Source of the DNA: Desertivirga arenae
GTDB lineage: Bacteria; Bacteroidota; Bacteroidia; Sphingobacteriales; Sphingobacteriaceae
NCBI RefSeq assembly: GCF_017355785.1
Contig: NZ_JAFEWE010000002.1
Span: 236,618-300,617, forward strand
Direction: 5' to 3'
DNA length: 64,000 nucleotides
Both the position numbers and the translations under genes were made by a program. The notes beneath the pieces were generated by a model. It saw only the letters and a program-made list of their open reading frames with translations, was not told the DNA's origin and did not search any database. Shown here one piece after another: positions 45,424-54,321 of the stretch (its first letter is position 1; the number at the start of each line of letters is the position of its first letter).

Positions 45424-46695
45424 ATGAAAATATACAATCTTTCTCCGGAAGAGCTTCTTATATTTAAAAAAAAAGCATTTCAATGGGCTGTTTCATTTGA
45501 AACAGCCTGTTATTTTGATTCCAATTCCTACCCAGACCCTTACTCTTCCTTTGATCTTCTTATTGCTGCAGGCTCGGTTAGGGAAATAAAATCCTCCTCA
45601 AAAAATGCTTTTAATCGACTGAGTTCCTTTATTAAACCCTGCAAATGGGGGATCGGGTTTCTTGGTTACGATCTAAAAAATGACCTTGAAGATCTAAATT
45701 CTCATAATAAGGATGAACTTCAATTTCCGGACCTGTTCTTTTTCGAACCCAAACACCTCATAAAACTACAGGGGAACCAGGTATTTCTGAATTCGATGGA
45801 CGGAGATGAGGTATATAAGATTATAAATTCCCAGCAAATAACCTCGGTGCCAGTTCAGGAATCAGTATCTTTTGAATTAAAAAGCCGTTTCAATTACGAT
45901 GAATACTGCCTGACAGTTGAAAAAGTAAGAGAGCATATATTAAGGGGAGACATTTATGAGATGAACCTTTGCCAGGAATTCTATTCAAAAGGTATGGAAT
46001 TCCACCCAGAGGAAACCTATCAAAAGCTGAAGGAAATATCCCCTACTCCTTTCTCATGTTTCTTCAAATTCCAGGGCAACTACATTCTATCGGCTTCTCC
46101 GGAGAGATTTATGTGCAGGCGGGGTAGTAAGCTGATTTCGCAACCAATTAAAGGGACCGCAAAACGCAGTTATGACGAAAAGGAGGACTTCCAACTGAAA
46201 GAAGATCTGAGAAATAATCAGAAAGAACAATCCGAAAATGTGATGATCGTAGATCTGGTTAGAAATGATCTAACGAAATGCTCTAAAGCCGGAAGTGTAA
46301 AAGTTGAAGAGTTATTTGGGATATATACTTTCAGACAAGTACATCAGATGATTTCAACCATTGTTTCCGAAGCTCATCCCTTATTAGATAATACAGAAAT
46401 CATAAAGGCAGTTTTTCCCATGGGATCTATGACGGGAGCCCCTAAACTACGAGCAATGGAACTGATAGAAGCCTTTGAACGAAGCAAGAGGGGCACATTC
46501 TCCGGTGCGATCGGCTATTTTTCGCCAGAGGGTGATTTTGATTTCAACGTTGTAATACGTTCCGTTTTATATAATTCAAAGACGAGATACCTTTCTTTTC
46601 AGGTAGGCAGTGCGATCACCTATGCTTCCAAACCAGAGAAAGAATATGAAGAATGTCTCCTTAAAGCTGAAGCTATTTTAAAAGCTCTCGCTTAA
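45424..46695 (+). CDS. pabB: Aminodeoxychorismate synthase component I
   Basis: This 423-residue chorismate-binding enzyme has SASPERFMCRRG, PIKGTAKRS (241-249), ENVMIVDLVRNDL and FPMGSMTGAPKLRAMELIE. Lysine in PIKGT (Lys243) is the residue that separates PabB from anthranilate synthase, which has Ala there. PabB makes 4-amino-4-deoxychorismate for folate. The gene is 17 bases after purA. A glutaminase partner (PabA) is not in the window; the class IV aminotransferase at 33987 may be the lyase. Confidence 0.9.
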   Translation: MKIYNLSPEELLIFKKKAFQWAVSFETACYFDSNSYPDPYSSFDLLIAAGSVREIKSSSKNAFNRLSSFIKPCKWGIGFLGYDLKNDLEDLNSHNKDELQFPDLFFFEPKHLIKLQGNQVFLNSMDGDEVYKIINSQQITSVPVQESVSFELKSRFNYDEYCLTVEKVREHILRGDIYEMNLCQEFYSKGMEFHPEETYQKLKEISPTPFSCFFKFQGNYILSASPERFMCRRGSKLISQPIKGTAKRSYDEKEDFQLKEDLRNNQKEQSENVMIVDLVRNDLTKCSKAGSVKVEELFGIYTFRQVHQMISTIVSEAHPLLDNTEIIKAVFPMGSMTGAPKLRAMELIEAFERSKRGTFSGAIGYFSPEGDFDFNVVIRSVLYNSKTRYLSFQVGSAITYASKPEKEYEECLLKAEAILKALA

Positions 46696-46714: not shown

Positions 46715-46745
46715 TTGCCAATTCAAAATCAAACATTTACTTTTG
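46715..46745 (+). promoter_or_regulatory. Promoter of the aromatic amino acid operon
   Basis: TTG (46715-46717) and TACTTTTG (46738-46745), an exact TAnnTTTG match, are 20 bases apart. Transcription should start near 46752, ten bases before the leader peptide start codon. Confidence 0.75.
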
Positions 46746-46761
46746 GCACAAGGAAATAGAA

Positions 46762-46812
46762 ATGCTAAACAACACTACATATTGGTTCGGATACTTTTAC
46801 TACTTTAGGTAA
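46762..46812 (+). CDS. Aromatic leader peptide of the pheA-aroC operon
   Basis: The 16-codon frame reads MLNNTTYWFGYFYYFR and stops with TAA at 46810-46812. It contains four Tyr, three Phe and one Trp, with a run of five aromatic codons (Tyr-Phe-Tyr-Tyr-Phe) near the end. It sits ten bases after the predicted transcription start and one base before the first arm of the attenuator. It should act as a sensor of charged aromatic tRNAs rather than make a functional product. Confidence 0.88.
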   Translation: MLNNTTYWFGYFYYFR

Positions 46813-46813
46813 A

Positions 46814-46887
46814 AGCCGGGACTAATATGTTTTGACTAAAAGAACTCATATACAAAGTCCCGGCCTAACAGCCGGGACTTTTTTTTT
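46814..46887 (+). promoter_or_regulatory. Three-segment transcription attenuator of the aromatic operon
   Basis: Segment 1 (AGCCGGGACT, 46814-46823), segment 2 (AGTCCCGGC, 46856-46864) and segment 3 (GCCGGGACT, 46871-46879) are followed by a T run to 46887. Segments 1 and 3 are copies, so segment 2 can pair with either. 2:3 is an intrinsic terminator; 1:2 prevents it. A ribosome at the leader stop codon (46812) would cover segment 1 and allow termination. A ribosome stalled at Tyr or Phe codons would leave it free and permit read-through. Confidence 0.88.
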
Positions 46888-46894
46888 AAGCTAA

Positions 46895-47725
46895 ATGGAG
46901 AAGAAAAGAGTAGCCATACAGGGGATCAAGGCATCGTTTCATGAAGAAGCCGCATTAAAATTTTTTGGAAATGACATAGAGACAGTTGAATGTAATTCAT
47001 TCAAACAAACATGTGACGTACTGAAAAGGAAAGAAGCGGACTTTGTGGTGATGGCAATTGAAAATTCAATTGCAGGCAGTCTTCTTCCAAATTACACTCT
47101 TCTCCGCGATTACCAATTTACAATTATCGGTGAGGTTTATCTTCATATTCAACTTCATCTGTTAGCACTTCCGGGTGTTGCGTTTGACCAGATCAAGCGC
47201 GTTGAATCCCACCCTATCGCCATTCGCCAGTGTGATGACTTCTTTAATGAGCATTCTCATCTGAACATTGTTGAAAGTACAGACACTGCTGCCTGCGCCA
47301 AACGTATACGTGATGAGCAGTTAACTGATACAGCAGCAATAGCAAATAAATTAGCTTCAGAAATGTACGGCCTTCAGGTGATGGAACGCCGTATTGAAAC
47401 AAATAAAAAGAATTATACTCGCTTTCTTATCCTTACAGATAATAAAGATATTCAAATAGAAAAAGCCAATAAAGCATCCTTCTCCTTTCAGGTATCGGAC
47501 GAAGTAGGTTCGCTCGTACGAGTACTGGATGCATTTGCAGAAAACGAAATCAACCTGAGTAAGATTCAGTCGATGCCAGTTCTGGGCAAAAGGAATCAAT
47601 ACAATTTCTACGTGGACATCGAGTGGCTGGATCATAAGAAGTATGAGGAGGCCTTACGCAGAGTACTTCGATATACGATTAATTTCACCATTCTTGGTGA
47701 GTATCTAAAGAACGATGAGGTGTAA
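46895..47725 (+). CDS. pheA: Prephenate dehydratase
   Basis: This 276-residue enzyme turns prephenate into phenylpyruvate. It opens with AIQGIKASFHEEAA, followed by ENSIAGSLLPNYTLL, RVESHPIAIRQCDDF, and TRFLIL just before a C-terminal ACT domain (about 195-276) that senses phenylalanine. There is no chorismate mutase domain; that activity is in the next gene. The ATG is only eight bases after the attenuator's T run. It is the first structural gene of the operon. Confidence 0.94.
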   Translation: MEKKRVAIQGIKASFHEEAALKFFGNDIETVECNSFKQTCDVLKRKEADFVVMAIENSIAGSLLPNYTLLRDYQFTIIGEVYLHIQLHLLALPGVAFDQIKRVESHPIAIRQCDDFFNEHSHLNIVESTDTAACAKRIRDEQLTDTAAIANKLASEMYGLQVMERRIETNKKNYTRFLILTDNKDIQIEKANKASFSFQVSDEVGSLVRVLDAFAENEINLSKIQSMPVLGKRNQYNFYVDIEWLDHKKYEEALRRVLRYTINFTILGEYLKNDEV

Positions 47726-47872: not shown

Positions 47873-48976
47873 ATGAAACTGAATTTAAACATAGAACCAT
47901 TAAGCGCATGGTTAACTCCAAAACATCAGCCTCTTGTAATTGCAGGCCCTTGTAGCGCAGAAACTGAAGATCAATTATTATCTACGGCACGCTTATTAGC
48001 CGACACAGGAAAAATATCTGTGTTACGTGCTGGTATCTGGAAACCACGTACCCGTCCCGGAGAATTCGAAGGTATTGGAAGCGTTGGATTAGAGTGGTTA
48101 AAGAAAGCAAAAGCAGAAACAGGATTACCTGTAACTGTTGAGGTTGCAAACGCAAAACACGTAGAAGAAGCTTTAGCTGCTGGTGTTGATATCCTTTGGG
48201 TTGGTGCACGTTCAACAGTAAACCCTTTCACTGTTCAGGAAATTGCTGACGCGTTAAAAGGTGTAGATATCCCTGTTATGGTTAAAAACCCTGTTAACCC
48301 TGATCTTCAACTTTGGGTTGGTGCATTAGAGCGTTTCAATGGTGCTGGTATCACTAAGTTAGCTGCTATCTCACGCGGGTTCTCTTCTTTCGAGAAATCA
48401 TCTTTCCGTAACGAGCCAATGTGGGAGATCACTATCCAGCTAAAATCATTAATTCCTCATTTACCAGTGATCTGCGATCCTAGTCACATTTGCGGTAACC
48501 GTGAGCTAATCCCTTACATCTCTCAAAAAGCGTTAGACTTAGAGATGAATGGCTTGATGATTGAATCTCACATCGATCCATCTGTTGCATGGACTGACGC
48601 CAAACAACAAGTAACTCCAGCTGCTTTATCTGATCTTATCGATCATTTAACAGTTCGTACTCCTGAAGCTAAAAACCCTGCGATATCTGATAAATTGGCA
48701 GAGCTTCGTAAGCAGATCGACAAACTTGATGATCAAATCATTCAGAAACTTGCTGAAAGAATGAAAATTGTGGAGAAGATCGGTGAGTACAAAAGAGATA
48801 ACGATATTACTATACTTCAGCTTAACCGTTGGGACGAAGTTTTGGAGAAACGTGCCAGCTTCGCAAAGGCACTGAACCTGGATGAAGAATTTACTACAAA
48901 ATTATTAGAATTGATTCACGGTGAATCTATCAAGAAACAAACTGCGATCATGAACGATAAAACAGTAGTTGAATAG
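47873..48976 (+). CDS. Bifunctional DAHP synthase/chorismate mutase
   Basis: This 367-residue protein has an N-terminal DAHP synthase (about 1-265, with PLVIAGPCSAET, VLRAGIWKPRTRPGEFEG, WVGARSTVNPF, CDPSHICGN) and a C-terminal AroQ chorismate mutase (about 285-355, LRKQIDKLDDQIIQKLAERMKIVEKIGEYKR). It thus makes both the first product of the shikimate route and prephenate. In related fusions the mutase part gives feedback control by prephenate. It is preceded by a 147-base gap with a purine-rich repeat, the longest within the operon. Confidence 0.95.
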   Translation: MKLNLNIEPLSAWLTPKHQPLVIAGPCSAETEDQLLSTARLLADTGKISVLRAGIWKPRTRPGEFEGIGSVGLEWLKKAKAETGLPVTVEVANAKHVEEALAAGVDILWVGARSTVNPFTVQEIADALKGVDIPVMVKNPVNPDLQLWVGALERFNGAGITKLAAISRGFSSFEKSSFRNEPMWEITIQLKSLIPHLPVICDPSHICGNRELIPYISQKALDLEMNGLMIESHIDPSVAWTDAKQQVTPAALSDLIDHLTVRTPEAKNPAISDKLAELRKQIDKLDDQIIQKLAERMKIVEKIGEYKRDNDITILQLNRWDEVLEKRASFAKALNLDEEFTTKLLELIHGESIKKQTAIMNDKTVVE

Positions 48977-48977
48977 C

Positions 48978-50225
48978 ATGAGTCATCCTGTGTTAATACT
49001 TTCAAAGCCTGGGAAGGACACTTTTTGCACCACGTATCTTACCGGTTCGAAAAGTGAGAGCAACAGGGCTTTGATATTAAACGCATTGAGCAAAGGAAAG
49101 GTGGAAGTTAAAAACCTTTCCTCTGCTGATGATACTGTTACTTTGAATGGTATTTTAGAAAGCAGAAAGGATAGTGTCGCTTCGGGAATCCCTACTGTAG
49201 ATATAGGACCGGCAGGTACAGCTATGCGTTTCCTAACAGCATACTTTGCCACCACTGGTCAGGAAGTTGTTATCACCGGAACAGAAAGGATGAAACAACG
49301 TCCTATCGGAATTCTGGTTGATGCTCTTCGCAGCCTGGGGGCTAAAATTGAGTATGTAGAAAAAGAAGGTTATCCACCTCTAAAATTCCAACCTTTATTC
49401 GAACAGAAGACGAATAAGATCAGTATAAAGGGGAATATCAGTTCTCAATTTATTACTGCACTATTATTAGTAGCTCCTTCCCTTCCGGAGGGTTTAGAAC
49501 TAACAATTGAAGGGGAATTAACATCACGTCCATATGTAGAGATGACACTGGCTATGTTAGCAGAGGCCGGAATCTCTCATCAATGGAACGGACCTGTTGT
49601 CTCAATCCCTTCCCAGGAATTCAAATCTTCTGCAATTACAGTTGAACCTGATTGGAGTGCAGCATCATACTGGTATTCCGTTGCGGCTTTATCTGAAGAA
49701 AGCTCTATCTCGCTTCCTTATTTAAAGGAAAACAGCTTACAAGGAGATAGCCGGATCAGTAAGATAATGGAAAGCTTTGGTATTACTACCAAATTTACTA
49801 CTGAGGGACTGGAGTTAAACAAGACCACTAATGAGATTAAGGGAGACTTTTTTGATTTGAAGGATTGTCCAGACCTTGCTCAGACAGTAATTGTAGTGAG
49901 TGCAGCTTTAGGACATAACGCGACCTTTACAGGATTAGAAACATTAAAGATCAAGGAAACTGATCGTATTGCAGCTCTTCAAAATGAGCTTGCAAAGATC
50001 GGGGTAAAGTTAAATGAAGAGAACGAACATTATCATTTAGATTGTTCAGGCTTGCATTTCCCTGAAAAAATTACCATTAGAACCTATGAAGACCATAGGA
50101 TGGCAATGGCATTTGCACCTTTGGCTTTAAAAATAAAACAGCTTGAAATTGAGGAGCCGGCAGTAGTTGGCAAATCTTACCCATCATTTTGGGAGGACCT
50201 TAAGAAAGCGGGATTTGAATATTAG
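48978..50225 (+). CDS. aroA: 3-phosphoshikimate 1-carboxyvinyltransferase (EPSP synthase)
   Basis: The ATG at 48978 is taken (415 residues), one base after the upstream stop codon; a TTG at 48969 would overlap it. Characteristic stretches are GSKSESNRALILNALSKG, GPAGTAMRFLTAYFA, the PEP-binding QRPIGILVDALRSLGA, and KETDRIAALQNELAKIG. It adds enolpyruvate to shikimate 3-phosphate. The first lysine of the classical LPGSKS motif is kept in TGSKS form. Confidence 0.95.
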   Translation: MSHPVLILSKPGKDTFCTTYLTGSKSESNRALILNALSKGKVEVKNLSSADDTVTLNGILESRKDSVASGIPTVDIGPAGTAMRFLTAYFATTGQEVVITGTERMKQRPIGILVDALRSLGAKIEYVEKEGYPPLKFQPLFEQKTNKISIKGNISSQFITALLLVAPSLPEGLELTIEGELTSRPYVEMTLAMLAEAGISHQWNGPVVSIPSQEFKSSAITVEPDWSAASYWYSVAALSEESSISLPYLKENSLQGDSRISKIMESFGITTKFTTEGLELNKTTNEIKGDFFDLKDCPDLAQTVIVVSAALGHNATFTGLETLKIKETDRIAALQNELAKIGVKLNEENEHYHLDCSGLHFPEKITIRTYEDHRMAMAFAPLALKIKQLEIEEPAVVGKSYPSFWEDLKKAGFEY

Positions 50226-50303
50226 ACAAGAAATTTGAGACGTGAAACGTAGATCCGTTTCGCGTTTTGAATTTTGTGACCACTCACCACTCACATTTCA
50301 CAA

Positions 50304-51395
50304 ATGGCAGGTAACTCATTCGGACAACTGTTCCGCATTACAACTTTCGGAGAATCGCACGGTGCAGCTATCGGGGTAATTATAGATGGTTGTCCTCCTA
50401 ATGTTGAACTCGATCTCGATTTTATTCAGAGTGAACTGGATAAACGCAAGCCAGGGCAATCCAAAATAACCACTCAAAGAAAAGAGAGTGATACTGCGCA
50501 GATCCTTTCAGGAATCTTTGAGGGAAAAAGTACGGGTACACCTATTGCTTTGGTTATCCCTAACGAAGATCAGAAGTCGAAAGACTACGACCATAACAAA
50601 GATATTTTCCGACCATCTCACGCCGACTATACCTATCAATCCAAATATGGGATCAGGGATCATCGGGGCGGTGGTCGTTCTTCCGCAAGGGAGACCGCAG
50701 CACGAGTAGCAGCAGGTGCTGTGGCTAAACTTTTCCTTAAACAAAAAGGTGTAGAGATCTTCGCTCACGTTTCCTCTGTGGGAACTATAAATGCTCCAAA
50801 TATAGACCCTTCTGATCTTAACGAGCTTCTTGATATCCGCGAAAGCAATATTGCGCGATGTGCAGATCCAGCTACAGCCCATGAGATGATAGAGTTTATT
50901 GATTCTGTTCGTAAGGCTGGCGACACTGTTGGTGGAAAGGTTTCATGTATCATCCGTAACTGTCCTGTCGGGTTAGGAGAGCCGGTATTTGACAAGCTTC
51001 ATGCCGACCTTGGTAAAGCCATGTTAAGTATTAATGCAGTGCATGGATTTGAATATGGATCAGGTTTTGAAGGGTCAGAAATGAGAGGATCAGAGCATAA
51101 TGATATCTTTCAGCCTTCATCTGAAAAAAATGCGGTGAGCACTATTACCAATTTTTCAGGCGGTGTTCAGGGTGGCATTTCAAATGGAATGGACATTACT
51201 TTCAGAGTAGCCTTCAAACCTGTGGCAACTATTATGCATAATCAGGATACGGTGGATAAAGAGGGGAACGCGGCAGAAATTAAAGGCAAAGGGCGTCATG
51301 ATCCATGTGTGGTACCCCGTGCTGTAGCCATTGTTGAAGCCATGGCCGCACTAACTATCGCTGATCATTATTTAAGGCAAAATGCCTATTTATAG
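50304..51395 (+). CDS. aroC: Chorismate synthase
   Basis: This 363-residue FMN-dependent enzyme makes chorismate from EPSP. Its signatures are [18 protein letters not shown] near the start, [21 protein letters not shown] near residue 125, and [20 protein letters not shown] near the end. It closes the aromatic operon and is followed by a long terminator hairpin. Confidence 0.97.
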
Positions 51396-54166: not shown

Positions 54167-54274
54167 ATGGCCCAAAGATTTGACCACATACTTAGCATTA
54201 AAATTATCAATGTTCTCATTCTGGTGAACGTTGTCATTGTGCTCTTGGGTGAGGTCCAGTCGAAGGTGTTATAA
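54167..54274 (+). CDS. Branched-chain leader peptide of the ilv-leu operon
   Basis: The 35-codon frame starts with ATG at 54167 and ends with TAA at 54272-54274. It encodes six Ile, six Leu and seven Val, most of them in the middle block read as IKIINVLILVNVVIVLL. Such a density is typical of ilv leader peptides and is very unlikely by chance. Its last codons overlap the first arm of the attenuator. It senses charged Ile, Leu and Val tRNAs. Confidence 0.9.
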   Translation: MAQRFDHILSIKIINVLILVNVVIVLLGEVQSKVL

Positions 54275-54321
54275 GATAAAAATTCAGAAGCGCCTTCGAC
54301 AAATACGGAGGCGCTTTTTTT
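54259..54321 (+). promoter_or_regulatory. Three-segment transcription attenuator of the ilv-leu operon
   Basis: Segment 1 is GTCGAAGGTG (54259-54268, inside the leader frame), segment 2 is CGCCTTCGAC (54291-54300), and segment 3 is AGGCGCT (54309-54315) followed by T to 54321. Segment 2 pairs with 1 (antiterminator, with one G-T) or, through AGCGCCT (54289-54295), with 3 (terminator). A ribosome finishing the leader covers segment 1 and lets the terminator form. A stalled ribosome over the Ile/Leu/Val block leaves segment 1 free and prevents it. Confidence 0.87.

Follow-up and report, generated by a model that had tools for sequence, protein, structure and literature searches.

Genes and features of the pheA locus

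The DNA analysed here, referred to below as the window, is a stretch of 64,000 nucleotides from Desertivirga arenae (Sphingobacteriaceae). In it, the 5′ intergenic stretch of pheA sits between a PabB/TrpE-like gene (45424-46695) and pheA, and carries a promoter, a 16-codon frame with eight aromatic codons (four Tyr, three Phe and one Trp), repeated RNA segments and a run of nine T (Table 1). A preliminary description had reported the promoter, the frame, the repeats and the T run, and all of them lie where it had placed them. We number the RNA segments 1 to 4, such that segments 1, 2 and 3 of the preliminary description are segments 2, 3 and 4 here.

Table 1. Features of the pheA leader and operon, in window coordinates.
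Feature	Position	Strand	Detail	Basis
Promoter, Bacteroidetes type	46715..46745	+	TTG 46715-46717, 20 nt, TACTTTTG 46738-46745 (TAnnTTTG)	sequence; motif in relatives
Leader peptide frame	46762..46812	+	ATG 46762, TAA 46810-46812; product MLNNTTYWFGYFYYFR	read directly; equivalents in relatives
Segment 1 (within aromatic codons)	46777..46800	+	ACATATTGGTTCGG 46777-46790, CTTTTAC 46794-46800	fold and cross-species swap test
Segment 2	46809..46830	+	GTAAAAG 46809-46815, CCGGGACTAATATGT 46816-46830; pairs with segment 1 or 3	
Antiterminator core, in segment 2	46815-46823	+	GCCGGGACT	
Segment 3	46847..46864	+	AAAGTCCCGGC 46854-46864	
Segment 4 and T run	46871..46887	+	GCCGGGACTTT 46871-46881, T run 46879-46887; intrinsic terminator with segment 3	
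pheA, prephenate dehydratase	46895..47725	+	first controlled gene (predicted)	domain/sequence
Rest of operon	47873..51395	+		domain/sequence; order kept in relatives
DAHP synthase/chorismate mutase	47873-48976	+		
aroA	48969-50225	+		
aroC	50304-51395	+		

An exact second copy of the antiterminator core is found at 46871-46879, and AAAGTCCCGGC in segment 3 complements both copies. The motif CATAT (46847-46851), also in segment 3, lengthens the 2:3 pairing in the window species, while the 3:4 pairing was detected by a terminator scan (11 pairs, 7 of them G-C). In the minimum-energy fold of the whole leader, the aromatic codons (segment 1) base-pair with segment 2, which straddles the leader stop codon. 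Pairing 1:2 excludes 2:3, and 2:3 in turn excludes 3:4. Given that the leader codons pair with segment 2, the layout has four segments and resembles that of E. coli. The compact three-segment design of the preliminary description was a misreading, which arose because the segment within the aromatic codons had been overlooked.

The leader region folds with a z-score of -5.78, a value that 0 of 200 shuffles equal. An RNA this well structured would also suit a site for a ligand or a protein (a riboswitch, a T-box or a repressor site), with the short frame present by chance. However, neither the window region nor 20 related loci contain a match to any Rfam family at or above its gathering score, and the aromatic codons and pairings are conserved between families whose sequences differ; we regard such a binding RNA as extremely improbable. 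The best Rfam family, Phe_leader (RF01859), aligns with the window over its full length (1-125 of 125) with a score of 29.2 bits. Since this is below its gathering score of 55 bits, the window leader is not a member of that sequence family.

Conservation in close relatives

Relatives were taken from a genome scan as the best 80 of 162 confirmed pheA loci; with the window they give 81 leaders. The aromatic-rich short frame, which the preliminary description had read directly in the window as 16 codons with eight aromatic ones, has an equivalent upstream of pheA in every relative (80/80, the best 80 of 162; the frame of L025 was assigned by hand). In these 81 leaders (the window and the best 80 of 162), the number of aromatic codons averages 8.2 and is never below 7. 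Phe and Tyr codons occur in 81/81 leaders, whereas a Trp codon is found in only 12/81. The proposed joint control through Tyr, Phe and Trp codons is therefore borne out in part: for the first two in every leader, for Trp in a few.

The promoter was typed on TTG-20-TAnnTTTG, which we take to be the Bacteroidetes consensus; an E. coli-type promoter scan missed it, giving no plus-strand match in the leader region of the window. In 71 of the 81 loci, TAnnTTTG occurs in the 60 nt before the leader start, compared with 157 of 4050 mononucleotide shuffles, and a TTG stands 17-23 nt 5′ of this motif in 69 of the 81. On reading the output, TACATTTA was found in its place in 9 of the 10 remaining loci.

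The preliminary description had named a common-pathway operon, and the order pheA-DAHP synthase/chorismate mutase-aroA is indeed kept in 80/80 relatives and followed by aroC in 75/80 (again the best 80 of 162). Four of the five loci in which aroC was not seen stop short of its site. In the fifth, L019, the leader is followed by pheA, DAHP synthase and aroA, with no aroC match in the 6 kb downstream of pheA. In contrast, the PabB/TrpE-like gene upstream in the window has no match among the 80 relatives; more than 3 kb of upstream sequence is available in 78 of these loci. Since the pheA operon stays while this upstream gene is unmatched, the leader goes with pheA.

These observations bear on the idea that the terminator is simply constitutive, or closes an upstream transcript, and that the short frame is there by coincidence. 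The RNA model described below does also score plain intrinsic terminators in the window's genome. Against this reading, the upstream gene is not conserved, a promoter motif lies between it and the leader, and the frame with its aromatic codons accompanies pheA in all of the best 80 of 162 loci, with the pairings kept across families. A plain terminator is thus, in our judgement, very improbable.

Among the relatives, L018 comes from a record titled as a Legionellaceae MAG, although its pheA locus and leader are Daejeonella-like; the contig is probably misbinned.

Pairing within Sphingobacteriaceae

The window and 76 relatives were aligned (alignment A1; L065, L067, L071 and L078 are identical to others in this region and were left out), and 29 of these 77 rows were chosen by hand for a cleanly aligned segment 3 (alignment A2). 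In A2, 98.1% of cells are paired for 3:4 and 92.5% for 2:3, and the covariation scores of both helices beat all 500 column shuffles; the number of 2:3 pairs with changes on both sides is reached by 79/500. An alignment across Sphingobacteriaceae had been proposed as a check in the preliminary description. In it the aromatic codons and the three arms known at that time (segments 2 to 4) are conserved and the arms covary, so that the predicted leader-peptide attenuator with mutually exclusive pairings is upheld as a conserved feature of the family.

The 1:2 helix behaves differently. In A2, 87.5% of its 599 cells are paired, compared with 38-49% when slid, and six pairs have both sides changed, a count that 11/500 shuffles reach. 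Its covariation is nevertheless weak, the score being reached by 72/500 column shuffles and the percentage paired by 56/500. Hence, within Sphingobacteriaceae this helix is more conserved than covarying. By eye, the Daejeonella group shows a linked change of C to G in segment 2, G to T in segment 3 and C to A in segment 4; in the same group a Gly codon of the leader (GGN) has become Ala (GCN) and the 1:2 register is shifted by one.

Segment 1 across families

For 30 leaders from 16 families, the pairing energy of a leader's own segments was compared with that obtained using segments from other families. The own 1:2 pairing is stronger in 27/30 leaders and in 15/16 families, with a mean difference of -5.3 kcal/mol, whereas in the 1:3 control the own pairing is stronger in only 13/30 leaders and 8/16 families. 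The own 2:3 and 3:4 pairings are stronger in 30/30 leaders, an advantage that is partly built in because segments 2 to 4 were chosen by pairing. The 1:2 result is free of such choice, since segment 1 was defined by position alone, as the leader codons preceding segment 2.

Synonymous recoding of the leader codons gave a negative z in 28/30 leaders (mean -1.50), and z was at or below -1.64 in 12/30, compared with 13/90 control stretches taken from within pheA (Fisher p 0.004). These controls are themselves biased, with a mean z of -0.62 and 71/90 negative; given this baseline, we treat the recoding test as supporting and rely on the swap test. Ten more leaders gave 9/10 negative values and a mean z of -1.11, the exception being L177 at +1.12, for which the automatic choice of segment 2 did not work.

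The position of the stop codon

In 71 of the 81 leaders, the frame enters or crosses the core of segment 2 and its stop lies 10-28 nt past the start of the core. The peptide's C terminus (e.g. SKSRD or SESRG) is therefore translated segment 2 in these leaders. In the other ten (the window, L002-L004, L006-L009, L022 and L024), the stop precedes the core. The two groups also differ in the spacer between TTTTAY and the core, which is 15 nt in 9 of the 10 early-stop leaders and 13 or 14 nt in 64 of the 71 others; it was counted from the first TTTTAY motif, and odd lengths (11, 17, 23, 26 and 29) occur in 7/81. Judged from these sequences, the RNA of segment 2 is kept while the end of the leader peptide varies. 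Over eight core codons (36 distinct cores), diversity is 0.20 at the first codon position, 0.34 at the second and 0.42 at the third, and we take the high middle value to reflect Phe and Tyr codons replacing one another.

The preliminary description had a ribosome at the stop codon masking its segment 1 (segment 2 here). This is plausible in the window; in 71/81 leaders the frame crosses that segment instead. The same distribution weighs on the three-segment attenuator as a mechanism, a scheme that does without segment 1, has the antiterminator strand masked by a ribosome standing at the stop, and would give read-through whenever the leader is not translated. The window's stop does stand directly before the core, and 2:3 and 3:4 alone would make a working switch; moreover, without a ribosome and with segment 3 as the newest RNA, a fold that contains 2:3 is not weaker than 1:2 alone. 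However, a stop before segment 2 is seen in only 10/81 leaders, and the predicted fold pairs the leader codons with segment 2, a pairing kept across families. We therefore consider three segments unlikely.

A probable four-segment attenuator

Upstream of the biosynthetic genes, the locus has a short frame rich in codons for the end products, an antiterminator (2:3) that is exclusive with an intrinsic terminator (3:4) followed by a T run, and a segment 1 inside the control codons that pairs with segment 2 by both the fold and the swap test. Its stop is placed such that a terminating ribosome would cover segment 2, with a 14-nt footprint assumed for the window. Comparison between genomes establishes the frame and its aromatic codons, together with all three pairings and the order of the genes. 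On this basis and on the modelling below, we predict, with a probability of about 0.87, a four-segment ribosome-mediated transcription attenuator of pheA-DAHP synthase-aroA-aroC that would respond to Phe and Tyr.

Such an attenuator would sense the charging of tRNA-Phe and tRNA-Tyr. With ample supplies of both charged tRNAs, the ribosome would pass the aromatic codons, reach the stop and cover segment 2; the 3:4 terminator could then form, and transcription would end before pheA. If either tRNA is uncharged, the ribosome would stall on an aromatic codon in segment 1 and make that segment unavailable, upon which 2:3 would pair, the terminator would come too late and polymerase would enter pheA-DAHP synthase-aroA-aroC. 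If the leader is untranslated, 1:2 would form first, and termination through 3:4 would follow as it does in E. coli. We infer that the leader is translated, that ribosomes stall on it, and that stalling changes transcript read-through in the sense given here.

To model these states, the window was folded for each ribosome position with an assumed footprint of 14 nt ahead of the first base of the A-site codon. For every A-site position between the first aromatic codon (46780) and Tyr 46801, both included, and with segment 3 as the newest RNA, 2:3 has 13-14 pairs and the free RNA a folding energy of -15 to -23 kcal/mol. At the last Phe codon (46804), 2:3 falls to 10 pairs and -6.6 kcal/mol, and at the stop to 2 pairs and -1.8 kcal/mol; 3:4 then forms. 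Because 2:3 loses its pairs toward the stop, the model has stalling favour read-through and completed translation favour termination. At equilibrium, 3:4 is the better structure at every ribosome position, and antitermination must therefore be kinetic and decided during transcription. In known attenuators the decision is likewise made during transcription.

In the E. coli scheme, an untranslated leader forms 1:2 and terminates via 3:4. The full-length fold of the window without a ribosome also contains both 1:2 and 3:4. With segment 3 as the newest RNA and no ribosome, however, a partial 1:2 together with 2:3 (-23.8 kcal/mol) is no weaker than 1:2 alone (-22.9 kcal/mol), so the outcome for an untranslated leader would depend on the order of folding. 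Termination from an untranslated leader via 1:2 should accordingly be regarded as the least secure step of the modelled mechanism.

Distribution in Bacteroidia and beyond

Of 158 genomes sampled from the class Bacteroidia, 44 yielded pheA, and searching with the protein or with the Pfam model PF00800 gave an identical set. By a fixed criterion, 29 of the 43 upstream regions besides the window's contain an aromatic leader, as opposed to 252 of 4300 dinucleotide shuffles (5.9%), and none was found within 450 nt upstream of the other 14. Outside the window's own family, 25 of 39 sampled pheA genes of the class have the leader, and so do 8 of 9 further class members. A terminator follows the frame in 29/29 of the class leaders, and 2:3 is better than in shuffles at p <= 0.05 in 22/29.

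In other classes of the phylum, the frame criterion is passed by 3 of 31 pheA upstream regions. L172 and L177 have a leader at the expected place and both look genuine; L201 has a TTG frame more than 500 nt away that looks accidental. In several of the 31 regions the prephenate dehydratase domain is part of a longer, fused frame, so that the fetched stretch may miss the gene start, and one region (L186) has only 308 bases. As far as these sequences reach, the leader family thus appears to belong mainly to Bacteroidia, its absence elsewhere not being firm because some fetched stretches may not reach the gene start.

An RNA model (R1) matched 205 of 395 class genomes at E <= 0.01. This count was rejected as a measure of prevalence: among the matches inspected, L107, L109, L110 and, in the window's own genome, L112-L119 look like plain terminators, which is why the pheA upstream regions were used instead.

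The searches also brought up several variants. Two loci carry tandem aromatic leaders before a single pheA, MAYRSAYYFYFFCFFSSCRG and MGYTYYYFFSLMDHRRLWVV in L150 and MLQTRFFFGYYYFYAAA and MVPTQQVFFTYGYYFFYLKKPARCCQC in L160, each followed by what is, by eye, a terminator-like hairpin and T run. In L111, a match of the RNA model on the reverse strand, an aromatic leader and terminator stand, by eye, before a DAHP synthase-like gene and not before pheA. In five loci of other families (L096, L098, L102, L104 and L105), the gene after the leader-bearing pheA is not DAHP synthase; it is a class I/II aminotransferase in L098, L102 and L104, the three that were scanned. Finally, the window holds a second candidate leader-peptide attenuator at 54167-54320, with an Ile/Leu/Val-rich frame MAQRFDHILSIKIINVLILVNVVIVLLGEVQSKVL from 54167 and a terminator GAAGCGCCTTCGAC...GGAGGCGCTTT with a T run at 54315, before ilvD (54378; dihydroxy-acid dehydratase). 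By eye, GTCGAAGG, 5′ of this hairpin, could compete with the hairpin's 5′ arm.

Relation to known attenuators

The pheA, trp and his attenuators of E. coli and Salmonella have a four-segment layout (Phe_leader, RF01859; Trp_leader, RF00513), and the leader of E. coli pheA uses Phe codons alone. The present leaders share with them a frame rich in the regulating codons, exclusive 1:2, 2:3 and 3:4 pairings, a T run and a biosynthetic operon downstream. They differ in their Bacteroidetes-type promoter and in the frame that runs through segment 2 in 71/81, and, unlike E. coli pheA, they use Tyr codons in addition to Phe codons. The predicted attenuator is ordinary in kind, well supported, and wider in occurrence than the preliminary description could know.

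Within the phylum, passages of a transcriptome study of Flavobacterium psychrophilum (PMC9723704, 2021) report strong indications that amino acid operons are preceded by leader-peptide attenuators, as well as structured 5′ elements before pheA, hisG and other genes that are conserved in other Flavobacteriaceae genera and have no Rfam hit. The window's leader is likewise a structured 5′ element before pheA with no Rfam hit, and comes from the same phylum. These passages give no anatomy, segments or codons and do not name the pheA element as a leader-peptide case. Its elements are from Flavobacteriaceae, whereas the loci presented here are from Sphingobacteriaceae and many other families.

Other reports touch on the subject in single passages. 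A 2010 survey (PMC2965389) states that leader-peptide attenuation had previously been found in Proteobacteria and Actinobacteria only, an atypical ermC leader aside, and itself adds cases from Firmicutes. The attenuators of Actinobacteria in PMC1262725 resemble the present ones in having a leader frame, an antiterminator, a terminator and complementary triples common to the hairpins; they are from another phylum and, as described there, lie at Trp, Cys and Leu genes. In PMC6429828, F and Y codons are noted in two candidate frames upstream of shikimate genes, in passages that do not name the genome. Short frames in B. thetaiotaomicron are remarked upon in PMC7366714, and PMC4833913, which cites a 2007 modelling paper on classic attenuation, gives a statistic for Bacteroidota on how far leader genes lie from coding genes. 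Judging by these passages, such switches are little described in Bacteroidota, the reports found being few and brief; since PMC9723704 and others precede us, we make no claim to first sight. What the present sequences add is the four-segment anatomy, the universal Phe and Tyr codons as against the occasional Trp codon, the two locations of the stop codon and the distribution across the class.

Taken together, the leaders may form a single attenuator family of Bacteroidia, probably ancestral, whose common origin is suggested by their spread over 16 sampled families. The common aromatic pathway would be controlled through Phe and Tyr codons, with a shortage of either opening the operon, by ribosomes that do not recognise Shine-Dalgarno sequences, as is said of the window's group in PMC9976891. 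The leader codons would be doubly constrained, by the aromatic peptide and by RNA segment 1, and tandem duplication of the leader would have occurred in two lineages or more. We consider the chances that this joint reading holds in full to be even.

Leader-peptide attenuation is a classic example of control by the speed of translation. A widespread and well-defined case in Bacteroidia would be a natural reporter of Phe and Tyr supply, and offers a way to test if the coupling of ribosome and polymerase is tight enough for such control in a group said to lack Shine-Dalgarno recognition.
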